Below are positions 12,469 to 60,644 of a stretch of 64,000 nucleotides of DNA, one piece after another. The notes beneath the pieces were generated by a model. That model did no database searches. It saw nothing but the letters and a program-made list of their open reading frames with translations, and was not told the DNA's origin. This stretch comes from Lunularia cruciata. Its lineage: Eukaryota; Streptophyta; Marchantiopsida; Lunulariales; Lunulariaceae. Numbering within the stretch: the first letter of the stretch is position 1; every line of letters starts with the position of its first letter. The position numbers and the translations under genes were made by a program. Location: contig OX419758.1 of the NCBI GenBank assembly GCA_948567375.1, forward strand, positions 12,281,001 to 12,345,000. Direction: 5' to 3'.

Positions 12469-12479
12469 TGGTATCAGAG
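12469..12479 (+). other. Primer binding site of C2
   Basis: TGGTATCAGAG after the LTR, the initiator tRNA-Met type primer site shared with C1 and B2. Confidence 0.85.
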
Positions 12480-13575: not shown

Positions 13576-13679
13576 ACCTCAACAAGTTGCCCAGGTGGAG
13601 GTTGTAGAATAGAATGATCAGGGAAACAAGGAATCCTAATAGGAGATTTTAAGCCGCCTATTGGGAGCTTGATTAGTTC

Positions 13680-15720: not shown

Positions 15721-15849
15721 ATTTGAAGGCTCTTCCTTTCATCATGGCAATAATTACAACGGTGTTAATTGACCCTAAGGTCCATAATGAGTCTTGATCA
15801 GCTCTACAACAAGATTCCTTCTTCCAAATGGTACATGGTCATTTGACAA

Positions 15850-17240: not shown

Positions 17241-17264
17241 TCACCAACTAGCGGTGGAGGAATA

Positions 17265-17674: not shown

Positions 17675-17679
17675 CAAAT

Positions 17680-19110: not shown

Positions 19111-19115
19111 GAATA

Positions 19116-19540: not shown

Positions 19541-19677
19541 TACTTTGTTAGTCAAAGTGATCTTTCTATGACACCTCTATCTGATCTTGCTAGCCCATCA
19601 TACCTTACATCCCTCTAGATGTTACCAAGTCAATTTTCACATCTAGATAATATTCTAGCTATTGGTATTACACTTTG

Positions 19678-24854: not shown

Positions 24855-25931
24855 GTGCACTCTTGAGGCCAAACAATATCCCCGACACCATCTCAACCTA
24901 GTACCTGCGACGGAAGTACTTGGAAAGGCATGTGTGCCTACAAATCCTATCAATGATGAAGCCACATTGCTAATCTGGATGAAGAAGACCTGCAACATCA
25001 AGCCTTACAAGAGGCAGCATATGATGGGAGTAGTGGAAAATTGGATCTCAAGAATGAATTGATATTTACGATTGTTCTCAACAAAGATCACGGAGCATGT
25101 TGCAGGCGTGTTTGCATGTGGGTACTTGACTGATAAAGCCCTCACATGGTATGATGCTTGGGAATGATCCATGCTGGCGGAGAGAAGAGAGGTCACGTGG
25201 ACAGCAATGCAAGAAGGATTGTTGAAGAATTTCCAATCGGTGGATTTTGTGCAGATGGCTTGAATCCGACTATAGAGATTGAGACAAAAGAATAGTTTAC
25301 AAGTGTATGTGGAGGCAATTTTGGATCTACAAGTCGCAATAACCGATATGAGTCTAGTAGAGGCTCTTGACAATTTCAAATGAGGGTTAAAGGAGCGGAT
25401 TTGCCAAGAAGTCATGGTGCAAAACCCTCGCATAGTATTTGAAGCCATTGCTTGTGCGTAGAGAATAGCAAGAGCATTGGGTGGAGGTGAAGAAGTAGTT
25501 CCACTTCAACATTATCAAGCAAAAATATCACACATGGGTGGACCAGTACCGATAGAGTTGGGCAACCTTCAATTTTGAGATCGAGGAGCAAGACCACTTC
25601 AAGGAGAGCATGGACGGGTAGAAGAACAAAGAGATGGAGTCCCCACAAGGAGAAAGTACTCAAGGAGAACAACACCGTGTTACAATTGTGGCCGTATTAG
25701 GCACATATCTACCAACTATTGCACTCATTTCCCTAGACGCCCTTGACCTTTGTAGAGGAAATCTTTGAACAACATGGAGAGGCGCATTGAAGAGGAGGAG
25801 GTGGAAATCACTTCGGAAAACAAAGATCACCAATAAATGTACCTTGTGGCCTTATTGGCTCAATAAGGAAGAAGAGAAGCAAGGGAAAGAAGAAGACTAA
25901 TGCACAAAGATCTTGAAAAGCAACCTCACAA

Positions 25932-27790: not shown

Positions 27791-27879
27791 GTGGCAGAGG
27801 TTAAGATTAACCCTGAATTCTGGCCAGATATTCTAGCTGCTACAAAAACTTATCCATAGATTGTAGAAGCGCAATCATC

Positions 27880-28845
27880 CAAAGGTGTCACCAACACCAA
27901 AGGACTCACCTTTCATGATGGTAAATTATGGATCCCAAATGTCCCAAAATTATGCACCACCCTTCTAGCGGAATGTCATGATTCGGCCATTGCTCTCTTT
28001 GGTTTCTTCAAAACCAAGTTGGCCATGTCCACAACTTATCACCAACAAATAGATGCCAAACAGAGCGGGCTAATTGCACGATTGAAGACATGTTACGCGG
28101 CTTCATCTTAGAAGAGCAAGAAAGGTGGGACACCCTTTTCTTGTTGGTGGAATTCGCTTATAACAATTCAGTAAATACATCCACCCATGTCACTCAATTC
28201 TTCCTCATGTATGGTAAGCATCCCTTCACACTTTCTAGCTTGATGAAGATCCATCCAATGGTTACCAAGGTCAATGCCGTCAACACATTTGTTTCTAGAA
28301 TCCAACATGGTGTAGAGAGCGCCAAGCACAGATTACAGATTGCACAAAATTGACAGAAGTAGTATGCTGATGCACATTGTAGGCACATGAAGTTCAATGT
28401 TGAGGATCAAGTGTGGCTATCGACAACCAACCTCACATTAGTTGGACCTTGTAAGCTCAGACCTTGTTCTATTGGGCCTTTCTCAATTCTTTGTCGCGTC
28501 GGCGCTATGGCCTATCACCTTGAGCTACCACCACACATGAAGATCCATCCCGTGTTCCATGTGCCTCTTCTATGCAGATATGCTCCCCAATCAGGCTAGG
28601 GTCATTCCACACAAGACATTTGACCGTATCTGACACTCATTGATGGCACAAAAGAATATGAAGTGGAAAGTATTCTCCAAAAATGCATGTGTGGTACTTG
28701 CCATCCACGGGTGGACTATCTCATATAGTGGAAAAGTTACCCCCTCTATGAAGCAACATGGGAGCTCGCTGCCAATTTGACACATGCACTGGTGTTGGTG
28801 AAAGCATTTGAGCAACAATTGCACAACGAGGACGTTGCGTCTTAA
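27880..28845 (+). pseudogene. B2 integrase remnant and chromodomain (fossil)
   Basis: Integrase-like sequence (LAECHDSAIA, MLRGFILEEQERWDTLFLLVEFAYNNSVN) and the following KLRPCSIGPFSIL and HMKIHPVFHVPLL blocks precede a chromodomain-like end at about 28640-28830 (YEVESIL, YPLYEATWELAANLTHA). The element is clearly a chromovirus. Confidence 0.8.
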
Positions 28846-28858
28846 AAGGAGTGAGGTC

Positions 28859-29496
28859 TGTAATACCACAAGCTAGCCATATGATCTAGATGTGAAATTT
28901 GGTTTGATAACATCTAGAATGATGTTATACATGATGGTCCTAGTAGATCAGATAGAAGTATCACCAAAAGAGTACTTTTACTAATAGAGCAGAAACCAAA
29001 ATAGACTTGAGAACCTTAGAACCAATAGCTAGACATATGATTTAAAGGTGAAAATTGGTTTGGTAACATTTGGAAGGATGGTATACATGATGGATTAAAT
29101 AGATCAGAAAGAGATATCATCAAAAGAGGACTTCTAATAATAGAGTATGAACCGAAATATGCTTGAAATCTTTGAAAGCAATTTCAAAGACCTAAACGGA
29201 TGAATTAGGCCTTGTACCCTAAGCTCCTAAACTCCTATAGGAAGATTCCCTAAAAGATTCCTTCTGGTCAAAGCTTGTTTGACCAGCCAGATAGAACCTA
29301 GACCGACATGTCACCCATCCAAGTAAGTAATCCAAGGGTGGAGCTTGATGACATGTCATCTATTTGTGTGCCTAATCCTATGGTGGAGCTTCCTTGGAGG
29401 AGATATATATAATAAAGAGAAGGTGCTCCTTTGGGGCACAGAATGTTGAGTGTGTAATCTGTGTTTTCTCTCTTCTCTTGTCTTTGGAGTCTTACA
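28859..29496 (+). repeat. 3' LTR of B2
   Basis: 638 bp, TGTAATACCACAAGC to GAGTCTTACA, matching the 5' LTR, with GTTGG following at 29497-29501. Confidence 0.85.
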
Positions 29497-29501
29497 GTTG
29501 G

Positions 29502-31240
29502 CTTCCAACGGCAAAGTGGACAACCTAGATCCTATGGAACCAATGGAGGGCCTAGTGTAGTTAGACCCTTACCTTCATTTTCATGTCAGTAGTAGCCAAT
29601 AAGTAGTGGTGTTGCTTGTTGAACTTGTGGTAGACCTCACACAAGAGATATTGCACTTAAGGTTATGGATATGATACCTCTAGTGCATCACAACCGGCAC
29701 AAAGATATTGTGACCATTGCCATAGATTTGGTCACACTAATGACCGATGCTTTGACCTACACCCAAAATTATGGAGTGGGAGGGTTGCCAAGGTCAAGTT
29801 GGTAGAGGAGGTCCAATTCATGGAGGTCAAGGTGGTAGAGGTGGTGTTAGAGGATCCACATCTAATAGGGGCGTAGTACATGCCCTTCCTTCTGATACAA
29901 CCATGGCTACTTGGATTGATCAGTTTGAGGAGAGATTGGCTAGCATATTGGACTTCATGTGCAGACCAATAATAGTATATGCATCTTTTCCAATGACAAG
30001 GAGTGTTGTACGTGCTCCAGAGCCTAGAGGGGCATCAGCAAAATTGGACTTAGAAAGAGGAGAGGTTGGTATATTGGTCAGACTTCCCCAGTCTTTTACA
30101 CTCTCTGAGCCACTACACATGACATCCATGGCTCCTAAACATCCTAGTGTAGGCATGGTAGGTGGTGATGGGATGCATGATAGACTACCTACTACTTGAC
30201 CACCTACTACTACACCGGTTGAGTCTAGCTCAATGTGGGGGTGGCCTAGTTGATTTTGCACTTCTCTTTATTCTCAGCCAGTGACATGTGTACATTGGGA
30301 GTTGACCCAACTCCAATGTTCTGGTTGGCTACCACACTTTGTGAGAGTAGGTATGATGTGGTTCTTGCTTCTAGAATAGAGTGGTTGATAGTGGAGCTAA
30401 TGTGGTTGAGAAGCATGGGATTTGCTCAACAATCAGTGGGTTATGGCAAGCAACAATAGCTAGATTGGAAGAGTTACCAGCCAGACCTACAATTGAGCAA
30501 GCACGGTTCACACTTAGAGTTGTCTTATTGGATAACCAAAGGGAGATTTTTTTGTAGGACCTTCAAGGAAGATCTATATACCACAGAGGATCTTATTAGG
30601 CTTTGGTCTATAATCCCTTATGTTGGGGAAGGTTGCAAGTATTGGTCTGGCGCTATGGAAGACCAATGTGAAAAGGTATCCATTTTATATCCAAACATCT
30701 CTAGGGGTAATTCTACACAATACATCACATGTGGAGAGTTCAATGTGAAAATTCAGCCCAATCATCTGACTGATAGCTCAATGGTGAGAGTAATTCAGGC
30801 CATTGCAACCATAGTTGAGTCATATGATGTGCTAGTTGGTGGAGTAGTGGATTTCAATATTGACTATTGGGAGGAGATAGCCTCCTATATACCAGGTTGG
30901 CAGTCATGTGAGGGATGGGTATATTGCCTACCATATACTTCAATAGTGGCAATCTTGGCTCACTATAGTTTAGGACCATGATGGCATCAATTTCAACTTT
31001 CAATGGTTTGGTTACTTGGCCTAGTGACTTATTGGAGTGGAGTACCCATGCAAATGATACTCTAGTACCAAAGGAGATCACTCAGATTCATAGTACAAGT
31101 GGGATCATTCATCCACCTTGGATATTCCATTGTGGAGCTCAAAGGAAGCATTGCAAAAGCATGTAGATCAATTGGTGCAATAGGCTTGGAGTGGAGCCTT
31201 TGTACCACTAAGAGACCAATGTAAGATGAGCCTTAGGAGT
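29502..31240 (+). pseudogene. Zinc knuckles and protease region of element A (fossil)
   Basis: Element A resumes after B2. A degraded first knuckle (29630) and a well-kept second, YCDHCHRFGHTNDRCFD at about 29705-29755 (C-x2-C-x4-H-x4-C), are followed by the glycine-rich GGQGGRGG stretch. The protease-like part (30490-30930, with STQYITCGEF, IAESYDVLVGG-like and FNIDYWEE) follows. All align in order with E 55990-57727. Confidence 0.8.
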
Positions 31241-31259
31241 CTATCCCGTTGTCACCTTT

Positions 31260-32230
31260 GGATGCCATACTCATTTCTTGGCAACATCCAATGGAGGGAA
31301 TATATCTATTGTGAGTTTTTGGTAGGATTAGCACTAGACTAATTGTGGTATTACAGGTGGGTATACAAGTATAGAGGCACTTGTATGTAGAGAGAGATGA
31401 GACTGCTAGGCAAGTCTCTCTACATCACATGGCACACTTGACCTATTGATATCTTGAGTTATTACCAATTTCAATAGTCATGGATTACCAAAAGACTCTA
31501 CTAGTAGATATTTCCTTACTAGGGAAATAGGATTTGGAGAGACATGGTCCCATTCATTTGGTGATTTCTAGATGGCCATGTTAGGGACATACACATGTTG
31601 GCTAAGGTCACGATCTCCAAGATCTCCATTTTGGTGTGTTTTGGGAGATGTTATGTATCCTACAACATCTATAGGTTCATCAATTTGTTTCTTTAGCCTA
31701 CTTTTTGGAGAACATCCCTTTGATGGGTGATTCTTTTACACAAGTGGTGGTAAGTACACATCTGGTGCATTTTTGGATGGGAATTGCCATGTTTTTTGAT
31801 GCAGCCAGAGTGGGATCACGGGCTCATTATCTTTGTCTTTGGTGGACAAACCTCTTACCTAGTGAGGTTCTATAGTATGTTATGATCGGATTCAACTACT
31901 AGATCACCTCACTATTGATGACATCTTGGATATTAGGCGTTAGTCTCAGTGGTGGTAGTGGTTGATAGGTCACCTATGGTGATGGTGAACCTTGTTGGAT
32001 AGCCCAAAGCCACTTTACCCACAATTATGAGTTTCCCAAACTCTCATGCTTTTTGAGAGGGAGGACATGGACTTTTTTGGGACTCATAATTATAGCAATT
32101 GATGTCCACTATCAATGAGAGGAAGCGAGTGATGGGTTTTTGCATTGATATTATTGTTATTATTGTAGTGTTAGAGACATCTGGGTGTTAGGTCATGCTA
32201 TGGATCCAAATGGTTTGACCTCGATTATGA
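31260..32230 (+). pseudogene. Cytosine methyltransferase region of element A (fossil)
   Basis: This aligns with the methyltransferase of E in order. Recognisable are the motif I surroundings (31300-31340), VERDE (31390), motif IV region near 31560-31600, the ENIPLMG motif VI at about 31708-31730 and motif VIII (GSRAHYLCLWWTNLLP) near 31812-31860. The domain sits between protease and RT, as in E. Its presence in this old copy shows that the family has carried the enzyme for a long time. Confidence 0.8.
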
Positions 32231-32799
32231 GCCTTGGCTTGGCAGAGCAACATAGGATGCACTTGATAGGCATCACCACTTGAACACTTGTGAGCTCTAT
32301 GCCTATCAAGATGATTTAGGTACATAATGAGGGCAATGGACCAAGTGGGCATGGTATTCTTGGGACACAAACCAGTGGCTACTAGTGAGAGTGGTCTACT
32401 TGGGGTCCATCTAGGTGAGTGTATTCTACTTGGGATGCAGCTAGAAGATGTATGGAACTTGCAACCAGATCAGTTTTCCACATTGAGGTTGGGACCTTTC
32501 GTTGTTGAGAGCATGACAATATTGCTCCCAAGAGCCTAGTGTAGTAGCCAATTAGTATGTCATCCATTCCTACAATAGTTACAAAGTATACTTTGGTGTC
32601 AGATCTTGGACCCAAGCATACAAGAGGGTAAAGATTGAGAGTTTGGAGGTTCTTGAGGAGCTATATGAATTGTTTTGCCTTTAATACGAAGGATTTAGGT
32701 GCTCTAAAAGGACCTTCTATTTGGATTGAGGTGATTGGCAATACACCAGTTTTTTGACGTCCCTATCAATATAGTGACATGTAGAGAGCATTGATTTGA

Positions 32800-34060
32800 A
32801 GCTAGAGTAAAGACTTTTTTGAGGCTGGTTTGGTGGAGATTTCACATAGAGATTATGCATCCAATATAGTGATACCAGCCAAGAAGGATATGCATGGCAA
32901 CTACATAGATAGATGGCGGATGTGTGGAGATTATTGTCCTATCAACCAACAGACTAAGGTTGATCAATATGCCATGCCTACACCAAAGGAGATCTTTGAT
33001 GCAATTGGGCATGCAAAGGTCTTTAGTATTTTGGATCTTTGAGCAAGATATCATTAGTTGTTGATCAAAGAGGAGGATAAGTCCAGGTTGGAATTTTGGG
33101 CTGTTGAACCTCACGGCAATTATGTATATATTAGTAGAGATTCTTACTATTTGGGTTAATGAATACTCTTGTTGAGTTCTAGAGGATCATGGACAAGATC
33201 CTAGCATGATTGGATTTTGCTTGGCACTATATTGATGACATTTTGGTCTATAGCACTACTATGGAGGAGCATGAGAAACATTTATCGGAGGTATTTGAGA
33301 AATTGAGTTCTCATGGACTCAAATTACATCTTGGGAAGTGTAGATTCTTCTATGAGCAGGTTGAGTATTTGGGTCACACTATCTACCTTTGAGGACTTGG
33401 TGTTCAAGGTACCAAGGTGGAGGCTATTGTACGCATTCCTTGTGCTATAGATGTGAGTAGAGTGCATGCATTCCTTGTTGGTAATATGTTGGAGAATTTA
33501 GTGCCATTGCCAAGGCCTTGACAAAGCTAACTAAGCTTACACATGAGTGATGTTGGGAAGATGAGCAAGAGAGAGCTTTTCTAGAGCTCAAAGAGAGGTA
33601 GATATTTGCTCCTATCCTAAAGAGACTGATCAAAGGATGACCACTTTAGGTTCACATTGATTGGAGTATGTGAGGGCTTGGAGCAATGCTCACCCAACAT
33701 GATAGTAAGGAGAAGAAGTTTGTGGTGGCCTATGGTAGTCACTCTAACAATTCAGCAGAGGCAAAGTATAGTTCATATGAGGGAGAGTGCTTGGTAGCCG
33801 TACAGGCTTATGTAGCACTTATGTAGTATGGGTATGCTTGGTAGCAATGTGAGCAACATGTAGCACATTTCTGATATTACCTATTTGGTAACCTCTTTAC
33901 TCCCATCATTGATCATCAATCACTAAAGTGATTGATAGAGTCTGACAAGCTTTTAGGGAAGCTTACACGATGGGCTTTAATTTTATTGGAGTATGATTTC
34001 ATGGTTATTCATAGACCAAGAGTGGTAAACCATAATGCAAATGGGTTGAGTAGAAACCCA
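32800..34060 (+). pseudogene. RT and RNase H region of element A (fossil)
   Basis: RT motifs are clear (VEISHRDYASN, PAKKDMHGNYIDRW, CGDYCPINQQTK, YIDDILVYSTTMEEHEKHL at about 33222, KCRFFYEQVEYLGHTIY) and RNase H follows to a VNHNANGLSRNPCP end near 34060. They match E closely and differ from B and C, which have LDD rather than YIDD surroundings. Confidence 0.85.
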
Positions 34061-34379
34061 TGTCCCAACCAACAAGATTAGACTGGAGCACATTGGCATG
34101 GTGAGATAAATGAGGAGATGGTACCAAGTTATGATGCATCGACCTTTCTATGTATATTCTTTGAGGCTTTGGTGGTTTCTCTCTCAATGCATATAGGGAG
34201 AGGTATTGAGGTCATAGATCCAAAGGGTAGAGATATTGGTACAATTTAGCAAGACATTAATGATGGTGTCTTAATGATGGACTATCTTTGTAATGGTGTT
34301 GTGGGTGGCATATTTGGGGCCAAGGAGAAAGACAGTGTTCTTTAGCAAGCCAAGCAGATCAAATTGGAAGGCAAACACC

Positions 34380-35670
34380 TTGTCGTGTATGAGAAGATGG
34401 TAGAGTGCAAGTAATACCACTTCCATCTTAGAGATTACAATTGGTCAATCATACTCATGAGGAGCTAGGACATTTTGGAGTAAAGTATACATATAGCTTA
34501 CTCTAGAGACATTATTGGTGGTGCGGTATGAAGACCAATGTATAGCATTTTGTTGCTAGATGTGTGGTTTTTGATTGAGTTAGAGCATCATTTAATCCTT
34601 CTATGTCACAATTACACCCATTACCTATCGTGGAGTTGGGTTGTTGTTGGACTTTAGACTTTGCTAGACCTTTGTTGTTGACTATGAGACATTGTTAGTA
34701 TGTTTTGGTTATGGTGAACCATTTCTCCAAGTGGATTGAGCTGGTGGCACTTCCTAACAAGTCCAATTTAGGGACGGCTTACTCGTTCTTGGATCGGGCG
34801 CACCATTTGAGGTTTTGACTGATCATGGTATAGAGTTCTTTGGGGAGTTTCAGGTCTTGTGTGACAAGGCCTTGACTGATCATTGTACTACCTCTTGAGA
34901 TCACCTTGAGGTAGATGGCTTAGTAGAGAGAGTGCTTCAAATGTTGAAGAAAGGATTGCGGAGGTATGGTTTGCAAAGAGGCACTTTAGAGATTGGGATC
35001 TCTAGTTACATTGGTTGGCCATGGGCTATAGGCTCAACCCGCAAACCTCCTTAGCATCTTTCTCTCCTTACTTTCCACTCTATGGACAAGATCCAAATTT
35101 ACCTACAGCCATTCATCAAGATGCTACTATAGTTGTGGACTTGGATGCTTCAAATGTATGGGTGAATGCATGTTGTCAATGAGTAGAGATCTTTCAAAGA
35201 GTGATGCCAATGACCTTTGAGAACTTAGTTATTGCTCAGCATAGTGATACCTTACGCTATGCTACTATTCAAGAAGGAGGTTATAGACCTTTGATCCATC
35301 AATTTCATCTAGGTGACTATGTACCTACAACAGACAACACCAACAACACTTGATGTTACTACAAGTGACACTATCTTGAGAATGCATGAGGTTTTGCCTT
35401 TTGGAGTTCTTGTGTTGGAAGGACACGATGGTGTTGTTTGGAAGGATCATGTGCAATTGTGCGCCATGCCACCTTCCAAACATTGATGGTTCTATGGACC
35501 CAAGCTTAGCACTTGTACATGCAAGCTTGCAGTGTATGTTATGCGGCTCTTCTGGTAGAATTGCTACTTATTAGTGTGTGATAGCTATTCAAGAGGATGG
35601 CATATGGTATGTTTGACTCTTCCCCTCATGATGGTTCCTCAAGGATAGTGATTATGTCATAGATGTACTT
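34380..35670 (+). pseudogene. Integrase and PHD finger of element A (fossil)
   Basis: The integrase zinc part (HEELGHFGVKYTYSL, ARCVVFD), core (TMRHC.YVLVMVNHFSKWIELVALPNKS, LTDHGIEFFGEF) and C-terminal part are followed, from about 35520, by the PHD-finger equivalent of E (LQCMLCGSSGRIATY, then CDSYSRGWHMVC-like). This shows that the PHD finger is also an old part of the family. Confidence 0.8.
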
Positions 35671-35856
35671 GACTTATAGCTAGTTCATCCTCTATATGGT
35701 ATAGATTGCAAATAGGTGATTAATGATGGGACTCAATAGCACCTAGCCTCCTAATCTTTGCACACCATAAGGTATACCATATATTTGTAGTATATGGTAT
35801 ATCTAGTATCTTGGCTATCTAGAGTTAAAAGGACCTAACCGCCAGCTAGGGGGGCA

Positions 35857-36254
35857 ATTGTGGCACTTTAGAATTCATGTATGAGTTGTGCTTCTATAGT
35901 GTATGATGTTATGTAACGATGTATGTTGTGTAGCAATGCATATATGCACAGCAATTGTCATGTCATTTGTGGAATTATAGCGAGATTGTTTGGATGATAG
36001 AGTAGTAGTGTAGGTAGTCATATGTATTTTGGCAGTTACTCATAGACTACTTGTTGACGGTTAGATTTCATGTTTGGGGTACTAACTACATGGTGGGGCT
36101 CAACATCACTTGCATCATTTGCACCATCAAGTGTTCCATCAATGGGAGTTCATATATGACTTATGTATGGCACTTTAGAGTTCATAAATAATTTATGTGT
36201 GAGTTGTGCTTCTATAGTATATGATGTCGTGTAGCAATGTATATATGCATGATA
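35857..36254 (+). repeat. 3' end block b-a-b of element A
   Basis: After the purine tract CAGCTAGGGGGGCA comes b (about 35857-35953, GTGGCACTTTAG to ATATGCACAGCA), then a shorter a (from 35956, TGTCATGTCATTTGTGG), then b again (about 36171-36254, ATGGCACTTTAGAG to GCATGATA). The GAAC target duplication follows directly, so the second b is the true end of the element. Confidence 0.8.
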
Positions 36255-50700: not shown

Positions 50701-50710
50701 CTGTTGTTGT

Positions 50711-50817
50711 TGTCGTGCGTATATACATCGCTACACAACATACATCGCTGTCAACATCATACACTATAAAAGCACAACTCACACATAAGTCATACATAGA
50801 CTCTAAAGTGCCACAAT
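50711..50817 (-). repeat. Repeat b, outer copy, of E
   Basis: 107 bp, identical to 51268-51374. This is the 3' end of the element, followed by the short ACAACA run and the ACAG flank on the minus strand. Confidence 0.85.
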
Positions 50818-51265
50818 AATCAGATTGCTTAACATTCTCAACTCAACTCAACTCAGATCAGTACTTGATCTGTCACTCTATAAACTGCCAACAACTGGGC
50901 ATTGATTACAATCAAGCCACACCCACTCAAGCATAGAGAATCCAGGTGACGCTCGCCGGCCTCTGTCCACCATAGCCAGGAACTCGAAGGCTCAACATCA
51001 GAGAAGTGAGCTCTCTGGAGCTCACTTCGAAACTATACCGCCTGGACTCGAGCTAGCCCTGAAACCCTAACGGTCCCGCTGACGGCACACTCGACGGTGC
51101 AAACGGTGCAAAGTGACGGTGGGCCCCACCGTGAAGTCAGTACCCCGAACACGAAATCTAACCGTCGGAAAGTAGTCCCTGAGAAACAGCTAGAATAACT
51201 CTAACTACCATCACTGGAACTCCAGTGTCCGAGCATCTAGATGCGGAACTACAAATGGCGTGACA
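50818..51265 (-). repeat. Repeat a, 3' copy, of E
   Basis: 448 bp, same length as the 5' copy at 60193-60640 and differing at about three sites. It lies between the two b copies. Confidence 0.9.
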
Positions 51266-51267
51266 GC

Positions 51268-51374
51268 TGTCGTGCGTATATACATCGCTACACAACATAC
51301 ATCGCTGTCAACATCATACACTATAAAAGCACAACTCACACATAAGTCATACATAGACTCTAAAGTGCCACAAT
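51268..51374 (-). repeat. Repeat b, inner copy, of E
   Basis: 107 bp between the purine tract and the 3' copy of a; identical to the outer b at 50711-50817. Minus strand ATTGTGGCACTTTAGAG to ACGCACGACA. Confidence 0.9.
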
Positions 51375-51391
51375 CGCCCCCCTAGCTGGTG
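51375..51391 (-). other. Polypurine tract of E
   Basis: On the minus strand AGCTAGGGGGGCG ends directly before the first b repeat. Element A has AGCTAGGGGGGCA at the same place. It would prime plus-strand synthesis. Confidence 0.75.
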
Positions 51392-51544
51392 GTTAGGTCC
51401 CTCTAACTCCAGATAGCCATCTACTCTAAGTATATGGTATACCCTCTAATGGGTAAAGATCAGGAGACCGGGTGCTATGGAGCCCCATCGTTAGTCGCCT
51501 GTCTGCAATCTATACCATATAAAGAATGAACTAGCTATAGGTCA

Positions 51545-51682
51545 AGTACATCTAGGACATAACCACTGTCCCTGAGGAACCACCGTGAGGGGAGGAGTCA
51601 TACATGCCATATGCCATCCTCTCGAACAGCTATCACACACTAACATAGTAGCAGCTCCACCAGAAGAGCCACATAACATACA
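51545..51682 (-). CDS. C-terminal PHD finger of E
   Basis: The last 46 residues fit a PHD zinc finger: C-x2-C-x11-C-x2-C-x4-H-x2-C-x14-C-x2-C (CMLC, CDSC, GWHMAC, WLCPRC), with the conserved Trp two residues before the seventh ligand. The order Cys4-His-Cys3 separates it from RING fingers (Cys3-His-Cys4). PHD fingers typically read the histone H3 tail. At the end of an integrase it would most simply steer insertion to a chromatin type, as chromodomains do in chromoviruses; that role is inferred. Element A has the equivalent at about 35520-35670. Confidence 0.85.
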
Positions 51683-52249
51683 CCTCAAGCCTGCACGTAC
51701 AAGTGCCAAGCTTGGGTCCATAGTACCATCAATGTTTGGGAGGTGGCATGGCGCACAATTGCGCACATGATCCTTCCAAACAACACCATCACGTCCTTCT
51801 AACACAAGGACTCCAGATGGCAAAACCTCGCGCACTCTCAAGATAGTGCGGCCTGTAGAAACATCAAGTGTCGTCGGTGCTGTCTGCTGTAGATATACAT
51901 AGTCGCCTGGATGAAATCGACGGATCGAGGGTCTATAACCTCCTCCTCGAATGGTAGCATAGCGTAAAGTATCTCTATGCTGAGCAATCGCCAAGTTCTC
52001 GAAGGCCATCGGCATCACTCTCCGAAAGATCTCTGCCCGTTGAGAACATGCGCTCATCCATACATCAGGGTCATCCAAGTCCAAAACTACAGTAGCATCT
52101 CGACGAATGGCTGCAGGTAAATCTGGATCTCGTCCATAGAGTAGAAAGTATGGAGAGAAGGATGCTAAGGAGGCTTGCCGGCTGAACCGATAGCCCATGG
52201 CCAACCAAGGTAACTGGAGATCCCAATCTCCCAAGTGGCCTCTCTGCAA
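51683..52249 (-). CDS. Integrase C-terminal region of E
   Basis: The region GDWDLQLPWLAMGYRFSRQA, SPYFLLYGRDPDLP and FHPGDYVYLQQ is the usual C-terminal extension with a small beta-barrel (RTILRVREVLPSGVLVLEG, VVWKDHVRNCAPCHLP). In chromoviruses a chromodomain follows this barrel; here a PHD finger does. Confidence 0.8.
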
Positions 52250-52258
52250 ACCATACTT

Positions 52259-52963
52259 TCACAATCCTCTCTTCACCGTCTGAACCACTCTCTCTGCTAA
52301 GCCATCTGCCTCAGGGTGATCTCGGGATGTAGTACGATGATCAATCAAAGCCTTGTCACACAAGACCTGAAACTCTCCCAAGAACTCTGTACCCTGATCA
52401 GTCAAAACCTCAGCTGGTGCACCAAAATGACTAAGAACTCGATCCAGGAACGAGTAAGTTGTCCCTTCACTAGACTTGTCAGGAAGTGCCACCAACTCAA
52501 TCCACTTGGAGAAGTGCTCCACCATCACCAAAACATACCGATGATGTCTCACAGTCAGCGGTAAAGGTCCGGCAAAGTCCAAACTCCAACGGTAACCCAA
52601 TCCCATGATAGGCAATGGGTGTAACTGTGGCGTAGGAGCATTGAATGATGCTCTAACTCGGTCACAAACCACACATCTGGCAACAAACTGCTGTACCTCG
52701 GTCTGCATACCGCGCCACCAATAATGACTCTGGAGTAAGCTATATGTATGCTTTACTCCAAAATGTCCTAGCTCCTCATGAGCATGACGGACCAACTGTG
52801 GTCTCTGTGATGGAAGTGGTACTACTCGCACTCTACCATCCTCCCATACACGCAAAAGGTGTCTACCCTCCAATCTGAACCGTCTGGCCCGCTGAAGAAC
52901 ACGCGCTCTCTCGTTGGCCCCAACTGTGCCACCCACAACACCAGTGCGAAGATAGTCCATCAC
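52259..52963 (-). CDS. Integrase zinc finger and DDE core of E
   Basis: The HHCC finger is seen as HAHEELGHFGVKHTYSLL and CVVCDRVRASF. The DDE core shows the first Asp in SLDFAGPLPL, the second in VLTDQGTEFLGEF and the Glu in LAERVVQTVKRG. This is a DDE integrase; no tyrosine recombinase is present anywhere in the element, which matters because its split terminal repeats otherwise resemble DIRS-order elements. Confidence 0.9.
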   Translation of the reverse strand: MMDYLRTGVVGGTVGANERARVLQRARRFRLEGRHLLRVWEDGRVRVVPLPSQRPQLVRHAHEELGHFGVKHTYSLLQSHYWWRGMQTEVQQFVARCVVCDRVRASFNAPTPQLHPLPIMGLGYRWSLDFAGPLPLTVRHHRYVLVMVEHFSKWIELVALPDKSSEGTTYSFLDRVLSHFGAPAEVLTDQGTEFLGEFQVLCDKALIDHRTTSRDHPEADGLAERVVQTVKRGL

Positions 52964-52984
52964 TAAGACATCATCATGAATGTC

Positions 52985-54547
52985 TCACTGAACTGTACCA
53001 ATATCTTCACTCTCTGGATCTGTGACCTCAATAACTCCTCCTGTATGCGCTGAGAGAGATACCACCAAAGTCTCTGCAAATATACACAGAAAGGCCGATG
53101 CATGCCAACCTGGCACCATCTCCTCATCTGTCTCACCATGCCAACGTGCTCCGGTCTGATCCTGCTGGCTGGGACATGGGTTTCTACTCAACCCATCTGC
53201 ATCACGGTTCACCACTCCAGGTCTGTGAACAACCGTGAAATCATACTCCTGTAAAATCAGAGCCCATCGTGCAAGCTTCCCTGAAAGCTTGTCGGACTCC
53301 ATCAACCACTTCAGCGGCTGATGATCAGTGATGAGAGTGAAGGGGTTACCAAATAGGTAACATCGGAAATGTGCTACTGCCCAAACTACTGCCAAGCCCT
53401 CTCCCTCATATGAACTATACTTCGCCTCCGCTGAATTGTTGGAGCGACTAGCATAGGCCACCACAAACTCCTTCTCCTCATCATCATGCTGGGTGAGCAC
53501 CGCTCCAAGCCCCAACATACTCCAATTAGTGTGAACCTGAAATGGTCGTTCCCTGATCGGTCTCCTCAAAATAGGAGCAGATGTCAACCTCTCCTTGAGC
53601 TCTACAAAAGCTCTCTCCTGCTCATCTCCCCAACACCACTCTTGTGTAAGCTTGGTCAGCTTCGTCAAGGCCTTGGCAATGGCACTAAATCCTCTAACAT
53701 AGCGGCGATAGAAGTTCGCCAACCCAAGGAATGCTCGCACTCTGCTCACATCCGTAGGCCGAGGAATACGTGCAATAGCCTCCACCTTGGTCTGCTGAAC
53801 ACCAAGTCCTCCGGGGTAGATAGTGTGACCCAAATACTCAACCTGCTCATGGAAGAACCTACACTTCCCAGGATGTAATTTGAGTCCATGAGATCTCAAC
53901 CTCTCAAACACCTCCAACAACTGTCTCTCATGCTCCTCCACAGTAGTGCTATACACCAAAATGTCATCAATATAGCACCGAGCAAAATCCAGTCCAGCTA
54001 GGATCCTATCCATGACCCTCTGGAACTCAGCAGGAGCATTCTTCAACCCAAATGGTAAGAACCTCCACTGATATAACACATCCTTGCCGTGAGGATCAAT
54101 AGCCCAAAATGCTGTCTTGGACTTATCCTCCTCCCTGATCGGCAACTGATGATATCCCGCTCGAAGATCCAAAGTACTGAAGACCTTTGCATGCCCAATC
54201 GCATCAAAAATCTCCTCCGGTGTAGGCATGGCATACCGATCAGCCCTGGTCTGTCGGTTGATAGGACGGTAATCTCCACACATCCGCCTATCTATATAGT
54301 TGCCATGCATATCCTTCTTGGCTGGCATCACTGTTGCTGATGCATACTCTCCATGTGAAATCTCCACCAAACCAGCCTCAAAAAGGTCACTACTCCGGCT
54401 CTGAATCAATGTCCTCTCCATCTCACTATATCGATAAGGACGTCGGAAAACAGGTGTGTCGCTAGTCAGCTCAATCCGTATACCAGGTCCCTTCAGAGCA
54501 CCCAAATCCTTCATACTGAAGGCAAAACAACTCGTGTGACTCCTCAA
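52985..54547 (-). CDS. Reverse transcriptase and RNase H of E
   Basis: A 520-codon frame. RT motifs are RMCGDYRPINRQT, KVFSTLDLRAGYHQLPI, FLPFGLKNAPAEFQRVM and the catalytic YIDDILVYS, followed by the thumb-like KCRFFHEQVEYLGHTIYPGG and RAFLGLANFYRRYVRGFS. RNase H follows (GLGAVLTQHDDEEKEFVVAY, NSAEAKYSSYEGEGLAVVWA, LITDHQPLKWLM) to DADGLSRNPCP. Order RT-RNase H-integrase is that of Ty3/gypsy. It copies the element RNA into DNA and removes the RNA. Sequence is nearer to element A than to the B and C chromoviruses. Confidence 0.9.
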   Translation of the reverse strand: MRSHTSCFAFSMKDLGALKGPGIRIELTSDTPVFRRPYRYSEMERTLIQSRSSDLFEAGLVEISHGEYASATVMPAKKDMHGNYIDRRMCGDYRPINRQTRADRYAMPTPEEIFDAIGHAKVFSTLDLRAGYHQLPIREEDKSKTAFWAIDPHGKDVLYQWRFLPFGLKNAPAEFQRVMDRILAGLDFARCYIDDILVYSTTVEEHERQLLEVFERLRSHGLKLHPGKCRFFHEQVEYLGHTIYPGGLGVQQTKVEAIARIPRPTDVSRVRAFLGLANFYRRYVRGFSAIAKALTKLTKLTQEWCWGDEQERAFVELKERLTSAPILRRPIRERPFQVHTNWSMLGLGAVLTQHDDEEKEFVVAYASRSNNSAEAKYSSYEGEGLAVVWAVAHFRCYLFGNPFTLITDHQPLKWLMESDKLSGKLARWALILQEYDFTVVHRPGVVNRDADGLSRNPCPSQQDQTGARWHGETDEEMVPGWHASAFLCIFAETLVVSLSAHTGGVIEVTDPESEDIGTVQ

Positions 54548-55003
54548 GAACCTCCAAACCCTCCGTCTTTCCTCTCCAGTAAGCTTGGGTCCAAGATCTG
54601 GCTCCCAAGTATCCTCTGTAACTGTAGTAGGAGTGGAAGACGTACTGACTGGCTGCTACACTGGGCCCTTGGGAGCAATGGTGTCATGCTCCCGACCACT
54701 AGAGGTCCCAACCTCTGTGTGAAAAACTCCCTCCACTCTGGCTGCAAGCTCCATACGTCCTCTGGCTGCATCCCATGTGGACCAAGGGTGTAATCCAAGT
54801 AGCCCACGCTCACCTGGATGGACTCCAAGTAGACCACTCTCCCTAGTAGCTACTGGATGTGTCCCAAGAATACCATGTCCACTCGGTCCATCGCCCCCAG
54901 CATGTGCCTGAATCGTCTCGATAGGCACAGGGCTCACAAGTGTCCGAGTGGTGATGCCTATCAAGCGCATCCTACGCTGCTCTGCCAAACCAAGGCTCAC
55001 AAT
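54548..55003 (-). other. Linker between methyltransferase and RT of E
   Basis: About 450 bp with no domain I recognise. It encodes a short repeated peptide (SGLLGVHPGERGLLGLHP) and a Gly-rich stretch (GGDGPSGHGILG). Element A has the same repeat near 32390-32440, so it is an original part of the family. Confidence 0.6.
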
Positions 55004-55995
55004 CTAGGTCAAACAGTTCAGGTCCATAGCCTGACCTAACACCTGACGCCTGGATGCCTCTGACACTGCTGGAACAGCGGTAATACCGGTGCGAAAACCC
55101 ATCACCCGCTCTCTCTCATCAGCATTGGGCTCCACCAACTGCTGTAACTGTGAGTCCCAAACAAGTCCAGGTCCTCCCTCTCGAAAAGCATGAGAGCCTG
55201 GGAAACTCATGAGTGTGGGAAATGCAGCTCTAGGCTGTCCAACTAGGTTCACCACTGCCATGGGTGACCTATCAGCCACTACCACTGTCTGAGACTGACG
55301 TCCAGCATCCAAGATATCATCAACAAGAATGTGGTCTAGTCGTTGAATCCCATCATAACTACGCTGTAGAACCTCTCTGGGTAAAAGGTTCGTCCACCAA
55401 AGACGAAGACGATGAGCCCGTGATCCCACTCTGGCTGCATCTAACAATACAGCAGGTCCCATCTATGAATGGACCTGATGTGTACTCGCCACCACTCTAG
55501 TGCGAGAATCACCCATCAATGGAACGTTCTCCAAAAGGTAAGTTGGAGAAACAGACTGATGAACCTGGAGATGTCGTAGTATCCGTAACATCTCCCAAAA
55601 CACACCAGAACGAGGATCCTGAAGACCCAAACCGCGGCCCGCACGTGTATGTCCCTGACATGGCCATCCAGAAATCACCAAGTGAACAGGCCCATGTCTC
55701 TCTAGGTCATGCGCCCCCAGTAAGGAAATGTCTCCTGGTAAGGCCTTCTGGTAACCTCTGACTGCTGACATCGGTAATAACTCCGAATACCGATAGGCCA
55801 AGTGTGCCACATGATGTAGAGAGACTCGCCTAGCAGTCTCATCTCTCTCTACATACAAGTACCTCTGTACTCGGATACCCGCCTGTAACACCGCAGCTAG
55901 TCCGGTGCTGATCCCACCAAACAACTCTAATAGACATATCCCCTTTACTGGATACTGCCAAGCAATGAGTGTGGTATCCAGAGGTGTCAAAGCAA
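55004..55995 (-). CDS. C5 cytosine DNA methyltransferase domain of E
   Basis: The region shows the C5-methyltransferase motifs in canonical order. Motif I, LLELFGGISTGLAAVL, would bind S-adenosylmethionine. Motif IV, GWPCQGHTRAG, holds the catalytic Pro-Cys. Motif VI, YLLENVPLMGD, holds the ENV glutamate. Motif VIII is SRAHRLRLWWTN, motif IX RERVMGFRTG, and a motif X-like RRQVLGQAMDLN ends the domain. The spacing from IV (GRGLGLQDPRSGVFWEMLRIL-like) and the ERVMGF block resemble the DNMT3/DRM side of the family, while order is unpermuted, unlike plant DRM. It would transfer a methyl group to cytosine in DNA. It lies between protease and RT, and element A has it in the same place (31260-32230). 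Methyltransferase-bearing LTR elements are known from Klebsormidium and Symbiodinium. Activity is not shown. Confidence 0.85.
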
Positions 55996-57727
55996 TTGCC
56001 TCTGGAGGCTCATCCTCACACTCATCCCCTGATGGTACGAAGGCTCCACTCCAAGCCTGCTGCACCAACTGATCTGCATGCTGCTGCAATGCCTCCTCTG
56101 AACTCCACAATGGAACATCCAAGGTGGATGGAACAATCCCACTCGTACTCCATAGCCGAGTGATCTCCTCTGGTACTGGAGTATCCTCTGCATGGGCGTT
56201 CCCCTCCAACAAGTCACCAGGCCAAGTAACTGCACCGCTGAAAGCCAAAACTGATGCTGCCATGGTCCCGGACTGTAGTGAGCCAAGACTGCCACTACTG
56301 AAGCGTACTGGTAGGCGACATACCCGTCCCTCACCAGACTGCCAACCAGGTCTATAAGAGGCTGTCTCCTCCCAATAGTCAATATTGAAACCCATAGGGT
56401 ATAACACTGCTCCCCCAACTAGCACATCATAGGACTCAGCTATCGTCGCAATAGCCTGAGCTCTCACCACCGAGCTATCAGTCGGATGACCAGGCTGAAC
56501 CTGGACAACAAGCTCTCCACGTGTGATGTACTGTGTCGAACCACCACCAAGAGATGTCTGGATCTGAAATGGACACCTCTCCACATCGGTCTTCCGTAAC
56601 TCCAGACCAACAACTGCAGCCTTCCCCAACATAAGGGGCTGCGCACCAGAGTCTAACAAGACTCTCTGTGGTGTATAGACCTTCCTTGAAGGTCCTACCA
56701 AACGAAAGATCCCCCTCTGGTTATCCAATAGGACAACACCAGGTGTAAACCGCGCTCTCTCAAAGGCCGGTCTAGCTGGCAACTCCTCCAGTCTAGCCGC
56801 TGCTGCCTGCCATAAACCACTGGTCGCTGAACGGATCCCATGCTCCTCAACCAAGTCAGCTCCACTACCAACCACCTCTGCTCTAGTAGTAGGAACTGCA
56901 CCATCCCTACTCTCACACAACGTGGCAGCCAACCGGAACATTGGGGCTAGGTCCACTCCCAATGTAAACATGTCACTGGCTGAAAATAAAGGATGCCGCA
57001 TAATCAGCTGGGCCGCCCCCAACATCATGCTAGACTCAATCTGTGTAGTAGCAGGTGGCTGACTAGCAGGTACTCCATCAAGTACTCCATCACCACCTAC
57101 CACACCTGCACTGGGACGTCTAGGAACCATGGATGTCGTCTGCAATGCCTCAGATAACGTGAAAGATTGGGGAAGTCTGACCTGTCTCCCAACCTCTCCT
57201 CTCTGTGGGTCCAACTCCACTGATGCTCCTCTAGGCTCTGGAGCACGTACTGCACTCCTAGTCACTGCTGCAGATGCATCCACCTGTGCTGCTCCGCACA
57301 TGAAGTCCAAAGCATCTCTATCACCAGCATATGAGGTGGAAGCCTCAGCACCCGAATCTGATCTCCTATGAGCAATAGCCATACTAGCCAATCTCTGCTC
57401 CAACTGCTCAATCCGAGTAGCCATAGCTGTGTCAGAAGTAAGGGCAGGTACTGCACCCCTACTAGGTGTAGATCCTCTACCACCACCTCTACCACCTCGT
57501 CCTCCATGAACTGGAGCTCCTCTACTACCTGCCATAGCAGCCCTACCACTCCGTAACTCCGGGTGTAGGTCAAAACACCGGTCACTAGTATGACCAAATC
57601 TATGGCAGTGCTCACACTGCCTCTGTGCTGGCTGTGATGCACCAGAGGTATCAGGTCCGCTGCCCTGAGTACACTCTCTCCTATGGTGAGGTCCACCACA
57701 AGTCCAACAAGCAACACCACCACTCAC
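55996..57727 (-). CDS. Zinc knuckles and aspartic protease region of E
   Basis: Two cysteine knuckles open this region: CWTCGGPHHRREC and CEHCHRFGHTSDRC (C-x2-C-x4-H-x4-C), typical of RNA-binding nucleocapsid. A GGRGGRGGGRG stretch and a Ser/Ala-rich linker follow. A retropepsin-like part near residues 340-450 has the active-site block RVLLDSGAQPLML with hydrophobic surroundings (ESYDVLVGGAV). It would process the polyprotein. The frame leads directly into the methyltransferase. The whole arrangement recurs in element A (29502-31240). Confidence 0.8.
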
Positions 57728-57817
57728 TGGCTGCTGCTGCCCCGAAAATGAGGGTAAGGGTCTAACTCCACTAGGCCCTCCACTCGCTCCATAGGATCTG
57801 GGCTGTCCACCCTGTCC

Positions 57818-58942
57818 TCAAAAACCAACTGGGCATGGTGCACTCTGCTGCACTCTAGAAGAAGTCACAATCGTGGATGAGGTCTCTCTACCAAATCCAG
57901 ATGTCACCACTCTCTCCTCCACCATGTTGAGCTCAATACGCTCAGCCAAACCAAAGACTACTGCCAAAGTGGGCGAAGTAGCCTGCAACAACGTAGCATC
58001 ACGAACTCTACGTCGCAACTCCATGTCCAGTATCCCATACCAAAATTGGACTGCCTTGGCCTCAGTAACCCCCTGAGTGAAACTGATCAGCCGCCTCATG
58101 CGAGTGTATGCCTCGCGTAGGCTCTCTCCAGCCTTCCGCTGGAACTCCTGCAAGCTCCTCAGCTTGTCAGTCCGCACTCCCTGGTAGTTCTGCCTCAAAC
58201 ATAGGAAGAACTCAATCATGGGGTTAAACCCCGGTACCACACCACCTCCTGCAGCGGTACTTCCACTCGTAGTAGCACTATCTCCAGCTAGTGCACCTCC
58301 ACTAGCTCCACCAACACTACTCGAGCTACAACTCGTAGGTACAGCCGACCTACTCCTGGCCACCGAACCTGAAGTGATGGAGACATAGTGTGGAGACCAA
58401 TACTGTCTCCATAACTCAATCTCCTCCAAATGAGCTCTCCTGAACTCATGGTAGTCGTCCATCAGTGGACCCTCCAAGTGCTGAAACAACCCCTTCCATG
58501 CCATGAAGGGTGTGAACAAAGTCGGGTTCCGCATCTGCTGCAGATCACACCAACTATCGAACTCCTGGATGAAGTCATCCAACTCAATGGTACCCACTGT
58601 ACCAGAGTAACGCCTAGGGCCTTTGGAGGCCCCATAAATCTCGTCCATGTCCCACAACAACGGTGCGGACACACCAAGTGCACTCTCAACTGAATCAGCT
58701 CCTGTGTCGAACTCCAACTCAGAGTCAATCTCCTCCCTCACTGGGACCTGAGATACAGGCTGATACCAAGCACCACTCCGAGTAAACCCACTGCGTACTG
58801 CAGGGCTAACTCCTCTGGAATCTCCAAAGAACTCCGTCGTGACAAAGTAACCACACCAACAAACCCGAACCACCAACTGCAACAGCAAGTCGCAACCGCA
58901 AGTGCCCCACCAAGTGCCAACACCACCGCGTGCCAACACCAA
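57818..58942 (-). CDS. Gag of E
   Basis: A frame of up to 374 codons; the true start may be later than the first Met, since the first ~60 residues are hydrophobic and poorly shared. An acidic stretch (EEIDSELEFDTGADSVES) is followed by GTIELDDFIQEFDSW and FMAWKGLFQHLEGP, a Ser/Gly-rich linker, then the capsid-like part (FFLCLRQNYQGVRTDKLRSL, FQRKAGESLREAYTRMRRL, AVQFWYGIL). This arrangement fits a retrotransposon gag that forms the particle. Element A has the same parts at 7762-7834 and 19678-20428. The zinc knuckles lie in the next region. Confidence 0.8.
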   Translation of the reverse strand: MVLARGGVGTWWGTCGCDLLLQLVVRVCWCGYFVTTEFFGDSRGVSPAVRSGFTRSGAWYQPVSQVPVREEIDSELEFDTGADSVESALGVSAPLLWDMDEIYGASKGPRRYSGTVGTIELDDFIQEFDSWCDLQQMRNPTLFTPFMAWKGLFQHLEGPLMDDYHEFRRAHLEEIELWRQYWSPHYVSITSGSVARSRSAVPTSCSSSSVGGASGGALAGDSATTSGSTAAGGGVVPGFNPMIEFFLCLRQNYQGVRTDKLRSLQEFQRKAGESLREAYTRMRRLISFTQGVTEAKAVQFWYGILDMELRRRVRDATLLQATSPTLAVVFGLAERIELNMVEERVVTSGFGRETSSTIVTSSRVQQSAPCPVGF

Positions 58943-60192
58943 CTAAAACACCACCCACTAATGTAACTCTAACCGAGATAACTACACTAGGGGAAGGGCA
59001 ACCTGTAACCTGCCATCATAACACGCACTCTCATAGTCTGCAGGTCATCACTTCCTACCTCACCGGAGAGAAACAAAGGTAGTCTGACTGGTCATCATTC
59101 CAGCCTCACCACCGAGAGCACACCAGAGCACCAACGCTCAAAAGTCAAGGCACCTCACACAAACGTGGTGCACAAACAGGAAGTAGAGAATGGAGGGGAT
59201 CCAATCACAAGAAATCTAAACGAAAACCCTCCATCTCATAACACAACACGGGACTGACTCTGCCACCATTTGGCATTTGACATAAGAGTAGTTCGTATCT
59301 AAGTCCTAAGCTACCAGGATCACCAAGAATGGGATCAAACTACCTCTCCTAGCCAAAGCTACATGTGTATAGATAACAGTGGCACAGTCACTATGACAAC
59401 AAGTGAGGGTGGACCAGTTGGCTAGGGCACCAGTCTAGGAACAAGAGATCTAGGGGTCAAACCCTGTTGCGCACAATCTAGCAAGAAAGGCAGATTTTGC
59501 CAACCAATGACCAAGATCTACACTAAACTAGCTAGCCTCACGCCAGCAAGCTGGCTTGTTGGCCCTTCTAGGCCTTCGTAGCCTCTCATAGCCCACAGCC
59601 CTATGCCTCGAAGCCTCGAAGCCTCGAAACGCCGAAATTCAGCCAAATGAGGCCTTTCTTGTTGCCACTTCGAACCTCCTCCAAAATTGGCAAAACTTCT
59701 CCAAATCTGCAAAACTCCTCCAAACTAGCGAAAGTTCTCCAAATCTGGCCAAACAGCGAAACTCCTCCAATTCTGGCCCAAAATCTGACGTAAACCCTAA
59801 AGATGGATGTCCGCCAAATCCCCCGCTAACTTTCCACTCGAGCCAAATTGACAAAACGGGTTTTTCCAAATCACAATTTCATGAGAAGAGCTTTCCAACT
59901 CCTCCTTCAATTTCACTTTTTGAGCCCAACTCGCAGCAAATTGGTCCTGTCTTCACCTCCTGAGCTCAAAATCACAACACTGCTCGAAAATTGCTCCTTC
60001 TTTGCTCGAAATTTGGCCAGCGCTTCCGCACACCGTCCGCCTAACTGCCAAATTTGCATCAACTACACGAGTTCTGCACACTAGGGAAACACAGAACCTG
60101 AATCGAGCTACCACGATCCACCGAGCTTGGAGATACCACCAACACTCAACGTTCCTGCACCCGATTTCCCCCTGACTTCACTTCTCTGATGT
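58943..60192 (-). other. Leader of E with a primer-site-like motif (59254-59268)
   Basis: About 1.25 kb between repeat a and gag. On the minus strand TGGTGGCAGAGTCAG (59268-59254) follows CAAATGCCAAA. This block is almost unchanged in element A (7195-7220), although the rest of the leader has drifted, so it is probably functional. TGG at its start is what a tRNA 3' CCA end would pair with, but I cannot name the tRNA. It lies ~0.9 kb inside repeat a instead of next to it. Confidence 0.6.
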
Positions 60193-60640
60193 AATCAGAT
60201 TGCTTAACATTCTCAACTCAACTCAACTCAGATCAGTACTTGATCTGTCACTCTATAAACTGCCAACAACTGGGCACTGATTACAGTCAAGCCACACCCA
60301 CTCAAGCATAGAGAATCCAGGTGACGCTCGCCGGCCTCTGTCCACCATAGCCAGGAACTCGAAGGCTCAACATCAGAGAAGTGAGCTCTCTGGAGCTCAC
60401 TTCGAAACTATACCCCCTGGACTCGAGCTAGCCCTGAAACCCTAACGGTCCCGCTGACGGCACACTCGACGGTGCAAACGGTGCAAAGTGACGGTGGGCC
60501 CCACCGTGAAGTCAGTACCCCGAACACGAAATCTAACCGTCGGAAAGTAGTCCCTGAGAAACAGCTAGAATAACTCTAACTACCATCACTGGAACTCCAG
60601 TGTCCGAGCATCTAGATGCGGAACTACAAATGGCGTGACA
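60193..60640 (-). repeat. 5' terminal repeat a of E
   Basis: 448 bp, on the minus strand TGTCACGCCATTTG to GCAATCTGATT. It holds three hairpins: CACTGGAACTCCAGTG, CGGTGGGGCCCACCG and GAAGTGAGCTCCAGAGAGC with its partner CTCACTTC. No b copy is next to it; the leader follows directly. Confidence 0.9.
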
Positions 60641-60644
60641 CTGT

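Follow-up and report, generated by a model that had tools for sequence, protein, structure and literature searches.

Retrotransposons that carry a DNMT3-type cytosine methyltransferase were described by de Mendoza et al. (2018; PMC5890265). According to the legend of their Figure 4, KnitGypsy-Dnmt3 of Klebsormidium nitens joins DIRS-type repeats to Gypsy-type domains, and its methyltransferase is reported to have a ratio of nonsynonymous to synonymous substitutions (Ka/Ks) below 0.2. SymbioDIRS-Dnmt3 of Symbiodinium encodes an enzyme that methylates CG in yeast (PMC5890265). Why a transposon should carry an enzyme of host silencing was left open in the text of the 2018 report (PMC5890265). Here we describe a related element in a stretch of 64,000 nucleotides (the window) from the liverwort Lunularia cruciata (contig OX419758.1, positions 12,281,001 to 12,345,000; coordinates below are those of the window). 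It occupies approximately 50708-60641 on the minus strand, where all its features lie, and comprises gag, zinc knuckles, a protease (PR) motif, a DNMT3-type methyltransferase, reverse transcriptase (RT) and RNase H (RH), a Ty3-type integrase (INT) and a C4HC3 PHD finger, so that the coordinates and the domain order given in the original prediction, which a model had made from the letters alone, were correct. Our comparison with an older copy in the window and with relatives elsewhere reveals that the pairing of PHD finger and methyltransferase is a lasting feature of a retrotransposon family and not an accident of one locus.

Chromoviruses are Ty3/gypsy elements in which the integrase terminates in a chromodomain that probably holds it at chromatin. 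They resemble the Lunularia element in having a chromatin-reader module at this end, and chromodomain-directed integration is reportedly the subject of a study of its own. In the Lunularia element, however, a PHD finger replaces the chromodomain, for which the integrase end gave no match at E-values up to 1, and a methyltransferase is present in addition. PHD fingers are also said to occur in CR1-like long interspersed elements (LINEs). The DNA transposon Ginger1-9_HM carries one at the C-terminus of its gypsy-integrase-like transposase (PMC2836005). These LINEs and Ginger1-9_HM are not plant gypsy retrotransposons, and no methyltransferase figures in the descriptions of them that were available. 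DNMT3-bearing gypsy elements with DIRS-like repeats and PHD fingers in other mobile elements are, therefore, already known. In the open-access literature we found no gypsy element from plants that combines the two domains or whose integrase bears a PHD finger. That literature, including the available text of PMC5890265, PMC2836005, PMC5408684, PMC8616336, PMC11244446, PMC12344493 and PMC9516144, also yielded no mention of a PHD finger in the present lineage or of its combination with the methyltransferase, of an occurrence in bryophytes and chlorophytes, of a second layout or of the dead volvocine enzymes reported below. The pairing is not unique to the Lunularia element and recurs in relatives.

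The element shares with KnitGypsy-Dnmt3 an unrearranged DNMT3-type methyltransferase in the gypsy Pol open reading frame (ORF), DIRS-like repeats and signs of purifying selection (PMC5890265). It differs in being bryophyte-like, in having a TAG after the methyltransferase stretch and before that of RT, and in its PHD finger, a term with 0 occurrences in the main text on KnitGypsy-Dnmt3 (PMC5890265). A PHD-ended integrase of K. nitens (P0057; P numbers are our labels for related proteins) does fall in the clade of the Lunularia element and may or may not belong to KnitGypsy-Dnmt3. KnitGypsy-Dnmt3 is most likely a member of the same lineage, of which the Lunularia element represents a bryophyte-like branch. 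SymbioDIRS-Dnmt3 likewise has a DNMT3-type methyltransferase in a split-repeat retrotransposon, but there a tyrosine recombinase takes the place of the rve integrase; it belongs to another class of retroelements, and its description in the available text contains no PHD finger (PMC5890265).

The methyltransferase domain (55007-55945) lies between the DSGA protease motif and RT and is interrupted by a TAG at 55463. Its motifs I, IV, VI, VIII, IX and X (ELFGGIS, GWPCQGHTR, LLENVP, GSRAHRLRLWWTNL, VGQPRAAFPTL and ERERVMGF) follow each other in unrearranged order. Pfam DNA_methylase (PF00145, cut-off 22) matched the ORF that holds the first half at 29.8 bits and scored 32.9 bits when the internal stop was replaced by an X. 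The predicted C5 methyltransferase between protease and RT is thus borne out by both Pfam and the motif reading, with the correction that this copy cannot make the whole enzyme because of the in-frame TAG at 55463. DNMT3 was the best match of the family profile (DNMT3A, 3.2e-27), and the domain resembles animal DNMT3A/B in catalytic fold and motif order, but here it forms part of a polyprotein of retroviral type, and no ADD or PWWP domain was matched by Pfam in the pieces scanned beside it. According to the available text of PMC12344493, protist and algal DNMT3s likewise lack companion domains. The unrearranged motif order sets the domain apart from DRM, in which the order is rearranged; positions 7-137 at the start of the family profile align with the far end of a DRM chain (229-353 of 357).

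The last domain of the ORF is a C4HC3 PHD finger (51548-51682; PF00628, 44.5 bits, cut-off 24), as canonical as had been predicted, so that both domains exceed their Pfam cut-offs. The position two residues before the ligand His is informative on the reading of H3K4, according to whether it holds Trp or not. Here it holds Gly and not Trp in 85 of 90 and in 32 of 33 PHD rows (the alignment has 121 rows found by profile or taken from the window, with P0036 and P0164 added by hand), so that in sequence the finger has the C4HC3 ligands and the missing Trp of a reader of unmodified H3. Fingers solved with unmodified H3, i.e., those of BAZ2A, ORC1b and UHRF1, are among its structural matches. Judged from sequence and model, the PHD finger of the element resembles readers of unmodified H3 tails.

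The minus-strand frame from 58942 to 51542 contains 6 internal stops, compared with 89 and 170 in the other two minus-strand frames. The order PR-RT-RH-INT, with the rve integrase after RNase H, is that of Ty3/gypsy elements, and the nearest solved relative of the RT-RNase H part is Ty3 (2.4e-93, with a profile led by the relative P0056). RT (RVT_1, 4.7e-32) lies at 53819-54286, RNase H (RT_RNaseH, 1.3e-35) at 53243-53632, the H2C2 zinc-binding domain of the integrase (Integrase_H2C2, 2.1e-18) at 52649-52813, and the integrase core (rve, 9.3e-14) at 52313-52594; a small barrel, Tudor/SH3-like in the model, follows at the integrase C-terminus (51734-51922). A gag-like open stretch of 374 codons spans 57821-58942; it has remnants in the older copy, and by eye the N-terminal part of Marchantia P0002 resembles it. 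Two zinc knuckles (CWTCGGPHHRREC and CEHCHRFGHTSDRC; 57575-57709) are like the pair in relatives such as P0002. The retropepsin-type active-site motif DSGA lies at 56642-56653, and the protease call in this copy is based on this motif alone, since the protease piece had no Pfam match at E-values up to 1; PF13650 (protease) is present in the relatives P0016, P0025, P0026 and P0032.

No simple pair of long terminal repeats (LTRs) bounds the element. Sequence comparison revealed the order A-coding-B-A-B in the gene direction: a repeat A of approximately 450 bp at the 5' end (60192-60641), beginning with TGTCACG, is 99% identical to an inner A (50817-51266), and an inner repeat B of 107 bp (51268-51374) is 100% identical to an outer B (50711-50817), which ends in GACA. 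The outer ends of the element are, accordingly, TGTC...GACA; a target-site duplication is not evident at them. A polypurine-like tract (ctaggggggc, 51376-51386) directly precedes the inner B. The tyrosine recombinase that is the hallmark of DIRS elements gave 0 Phage_integrase matches in the seven ORFs scanned, and an rve integrase is present instead. The term gypsy-like, as originally used, is therefore appropriate for the proteins but not for the repeats, which are DIRS-like as in KnitGypsy-Dnmt3. The element represents a retrotransposon of Ty3/gypsy type, dead in this copy, whose direct repeats are split in the manner of DIRS elements.

A second, older full-length copy lies on the plus strand at 6265-36242, as collinear blastn pieces of 70-83% identity (6265-7042, 7111-7839, 19672-20413, 29495-29946, 29948-36147 and 36168-36242) that are split by nested elements. 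It retains remnants of the methyltransferase (31339-32140; tblastn 6e-88, three pieces in different frames) and of the PHD finger (35455-35669; tblastn 1.7e-23, frameshifted and with at least one zinc ligand lost), and by blastn its end (35857-36242) has the order B-A'-B (35857-35949, 36007-36147 and 36168-36242), where A' corresponds to 140 bp of repeat A. The two domains do not, as the original prediction had allowed they might, occur together at this locus only, since the older copy has a decayed pair and further pairs are present in relatives. Over 6519 aligned positions, C-to-T differences from the minus-strand copy to the older copy amount to 45% and 44% at CG (coding and other strand, respectively), 40% and 38% at CHG, and 10% and 11% at CHH. 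Plant methylation at CG and CHG would be expected to leave such decay behind; the older copy was methylated, and the decay does not indicate the writer.

Differences between the two copies were also counted by codon position (1, 2, 3), setting C>T and G>A aside (45, 39 and 31 in the methyltransferase). The methyltransferase, with 18, 13 and 43 differences (odds ratio 3.07, p 4.9e-6), has the strongest third-position bias of the eight stretches, followed by zinc knuckle to protease (42, 28, 67; 2.04, p 9.3e-5), integrase (14, 8, 20; 1.91, p 0.044), linker (5, 9, 12; 1.79, p 0.2), RT-RNase H (23, 18, 32; 1.60, p 0.056), integrase end (9, 5, 9; 1.32, p 0.51) and gag (25, 31, 31; 1.11, p 0.64). 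These numbers indicate purifying selection on the methyltransferase in the lineage of both copies. As far as this test shows, with the stretches tested one by one and not against each other, the methyltransferase was kept no less strictly than the polymerase.

A search with the methyltransferase region yielded 43 proteins (named sources Calypogeia fissa, Marchantia polymorpha and Sphagnum fallax), and one with the integrase end and PHD finger yielded 196, including Marchantia P0045, K. nitens P0057, Volvox reticuliferus P0089, Pleodorina starrii P0145 and Tetrabaena socialis P0147. The 43 proteins and the best 120 of the 196 make up 163 listed relatives; since the second query contained the PHD finger, its matches are biased toward carrying one. 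With family profiles both domains are found in 43 of the 163, in some as fragments (only a fragment of the methyltransferase occurs in, e.g., P0045, P0127, P0136 and P0144, and contig or model ends cut some), whereas the precomputed Pfam models find both in 11 of the 120 listed integrase-PHD matches. The named organisms with both domains in one protein are Marchantia (P0045, a fragment) and three volvocines with worn enzymes. A third search added P0164, which has both domains, and Closterium P0168, in which the methyltransferase is followed by RT. By the names of the source organisms, and barring contamination of their assemblies, the range would reach beyond Klebsormidium and take in liverworts, the moss Sphagnum, Closterium and chlorophytes.

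Two layouts were encountered. In the upstream layout the methyltransferase precedes RT (Marchantia, Closterium, P0034, P0036, P0039, P0042, P0056 and P0149), while in the volvocine-type layout (the between layout) it is found directly upstream of the integrase and, in proteins that include RNase H, downstream of the latter. In the integrase tree (119 of the 163 proteins plus the window, 44 lacking the stretch; P0057 trimmed to its second half, P0045 labelled by hand, 45 rows without readable layout), a clade of 34 rows holds 26 in which no methyltransferase separates RNase H from the integrase, along with 5 upstream, 3 of unknown layout and 0 between, and a clade of 86 rows holds 40 between, 42 unknown, 4 likewise without one there and 0 upstream; their split has an SH-aLRT support of 97. 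P0057 (KFL_015960010), the integrase of which ends in a PHD finger, falls in the 34-row clade with unknown layout; part of its integrase is repeated in tandem. In the methyltransferase tree (73 of 86 rows, those of at least 240 residues, plus P0164 and P0168), 42 and 33 rows separate at 99. Both trees are quick and midpoint-rooted, with long branches for P0111 and P0149 in one and for P0149, P0056, P0110 and P0168 in the other, which limits the weight of both splits.

At motif IV, Pro-Cys is present in all 41 readable rows of the upstream group (46 rows, window included), while the 32 readable of the 40 between-type rows have EC in 19, PC in 10 and no catalytic Cys in 3. The change from Pro to Glu before the catalytic Cys (ECQ, ECN or ECT) occurs in P0125, P0130 and 17 other between-type proteins. 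A whole C4HC3 PHD finger is kept in both integrase clades, and from these sequences it seems the steadier partner of the two, in a search that selected for it. Among the rows compared, between-type proteins (e.g., P0041, P0145, P0147 and P0164) continue for 54-344 residues past the PHD finger, against 0-21 in those of upstream type, and their tails contain a recurring WGxVxYxG...YxDG-like stretch that by eye is similar to a Tudor-like reader.

What the two domains do together can be read jointly, with a probability that we put at roughly 0.45: this is a dead Ty3/gypsy-type element whose methyltransferase would mark the element's own DNA and whose PHD finger would tether the integrase to H3K4me0-type chromatin. 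The enzyme would methylate the double-stranded DNA arising from reverse transcription, before or at integration, and the methylated new insert might then resemble host DNA or settle quietly into chromatin. Methylation of the element's own DNA was also proposed for the 2018 elements in the text of that report (PMC5890265). The PHD finger, in the place of the chromodomain of chromoviruses, would bind the unmodified H3 tail; reader and writer would be akin to the ADD and catalytic domains of animal DNMT3, within a mobile element. That the element marks DNA and chooses chromatin is plausible, the binding by the PHD finger being predicted from sequence and model.

Several observations weigh against this. 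The minus-strand copy itself is dead and unable to act, with five likely nonsense lesions (57818, 55463, 55004, 52985 and 52259, i.e., five of the six stops) besides the TAG shared with the older copy. The CG and CHG decay of the older copy is what host methylation alone would produce, and selection on the PHD finger rests on 3 usable differences (1, 1, 1), too few to judge. The top-scoring structural matches of the finger (MOZ, MORF and DPF3) were solved together with K14-acylated H3, one UHRF1 entry among the matches (3sow) holds an H3K4me3 peptide, and the finger of P0036 is atypical. In P0041, P0089 and P0147 the methyltransferase is called by family profiles only, Pfam DNA_methylase giving no match. 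The catalytic Cys is lost in P0089 (Volvox), P0147 (Tetrabaena) and P0103, with the PCQ and ENV motifs gone and the PHD finger intact, and P0121, P0137, P0143 and P0146 are PHD proteins of the between clade in which no methyltransferase was detected; methylation is, therefore, dispensable for some members. The KnitGypsy-Dnmt3 enzyme was without activity in yeast, in an assay that its authors call inconclusive (PMC5890265).

Instead, the methyltransferase may act on the host side, silencing or capping its own family as copy-number control or methylating elsewhere, while the PHD finger would only aid folding or assembly of the integrase. The once dense methylation of the older copy would agree with this, and slowed retrotransposition is discussed as an option in the available text of de Mendoza et al. 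(PMC5890265). However, CMTs are considered the source of CHG methylation in land plants (PMC9516144), so that the decay can be explained without an enzyme encoded by the element, and a whole C4HC3 finger in both clades exceeds what structural filler seems to need; we consider such host-side action improbable. We are similarly doubtful that the methyltransferase serves the particle by its structure or by binding nucleic acid, with dispensable chemistry, its volvocine version being a dead, DNMT3L-like partner. The 3 of 32 between-type rows that lost the Cys but kept other motifs and the PHD finger, and the Glu for Pro in 19 of the 32, are what this would predict, but the PC of all readable upstream-type rows and the third-position bias of the methyltransferase argue against it.

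PHD fingers as a class include readers of H3K4me3, and the 3sow match contains an H3K4me3 peptide; the finger might, therefore, send the element to active promoters instead of chromatin with unmodified H3. With Gly in place of Trp in nearly all rows and unmodified-H3 complexes (BAZ2A, ORC1b and UHRF1) among the matches, this appears quite unlikely. A chance union of the two domains, whether by the insertion of one element into another, by an assembly error or by readthrough across genes that have nothing to do with each other, might come to mind in a window full of nested and decayed elements, but a single reading frame joins both domains, and such a union is refuted by the remnants of both in the older copy and by their joint presence in 43 of 163 relatives by profiles and 11 of 120 listed matches by Pfam; we give it practically no credence.

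A wider scenario may be sketched, which we regard as tentative and on balance rather unlikely. An ancient retrotransposon lineage of green plants would possess a reader-writer pair of PHD finger and DNMT3-type enzyme; the methyltransferase would have been captured once, before the split of charophytes and bryophytes from chlorophytes, later moved within the polyprotein in one branch, and decayed in volvocines to a dead DNMT3L-like partner with the PHD finger intact. The DNMT3 system of reader, writer and cofactor would thus have been reinvented outside the control of the host genome. To the question why a transposon carries a host-silencing enzyme, a conserved finger of histone-reader type on the integrase of the same lineage offers a concrete, testable answer: choose chromatin and bring the mark. 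Relatives occur in the genetic model Marchantia polymorpha and, with a dead methyltransferase, in volvocines, which provides tractable systems and a natural experiment.

The remaining stop, an in-frame TAG (54656-54658), separates the methyltransferase stretch from that of RT and stands in the context TAG-CAG-CCA, which we take to fit the readthrough signal UAG-CAR-YYA of the tobacco mosaic virus type. The older copy has the TAG too, and there the codon after it has itself become TAG. The first-ORF models of Marchantia P0002 and Calypogeia P0001 terminate in the same linker. This TAG may be a readthrough site that divides the coding region into a gag-PR-methyltransferase product and an RT-RH-INT-PHD product. 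Against this idea, the Marchantia models P0006 and P0015 continue into RT (that of P0006 lacks most of the linker), and methyltransferase and RT share one open frame in P0036, P0056 and P0149; readthrough or re-initiation in liverwort-type elements is a guess.

The elements nested in the older copy occupy 8437-19541, which is a pile of related gypsy copies, and 20429-29212. Their repeats (8437-8860 with 19118-19541, and 20429-20782 with 28859-29212) are approximately 92% alike in each pair. The long open frames on the minus strand at 22186-24370 lie in a strongly G-skewed stretch (0.62 at 22001-24000) of degenerate repeats with periods of approximately 100-300 bp, which leaves these frames open.

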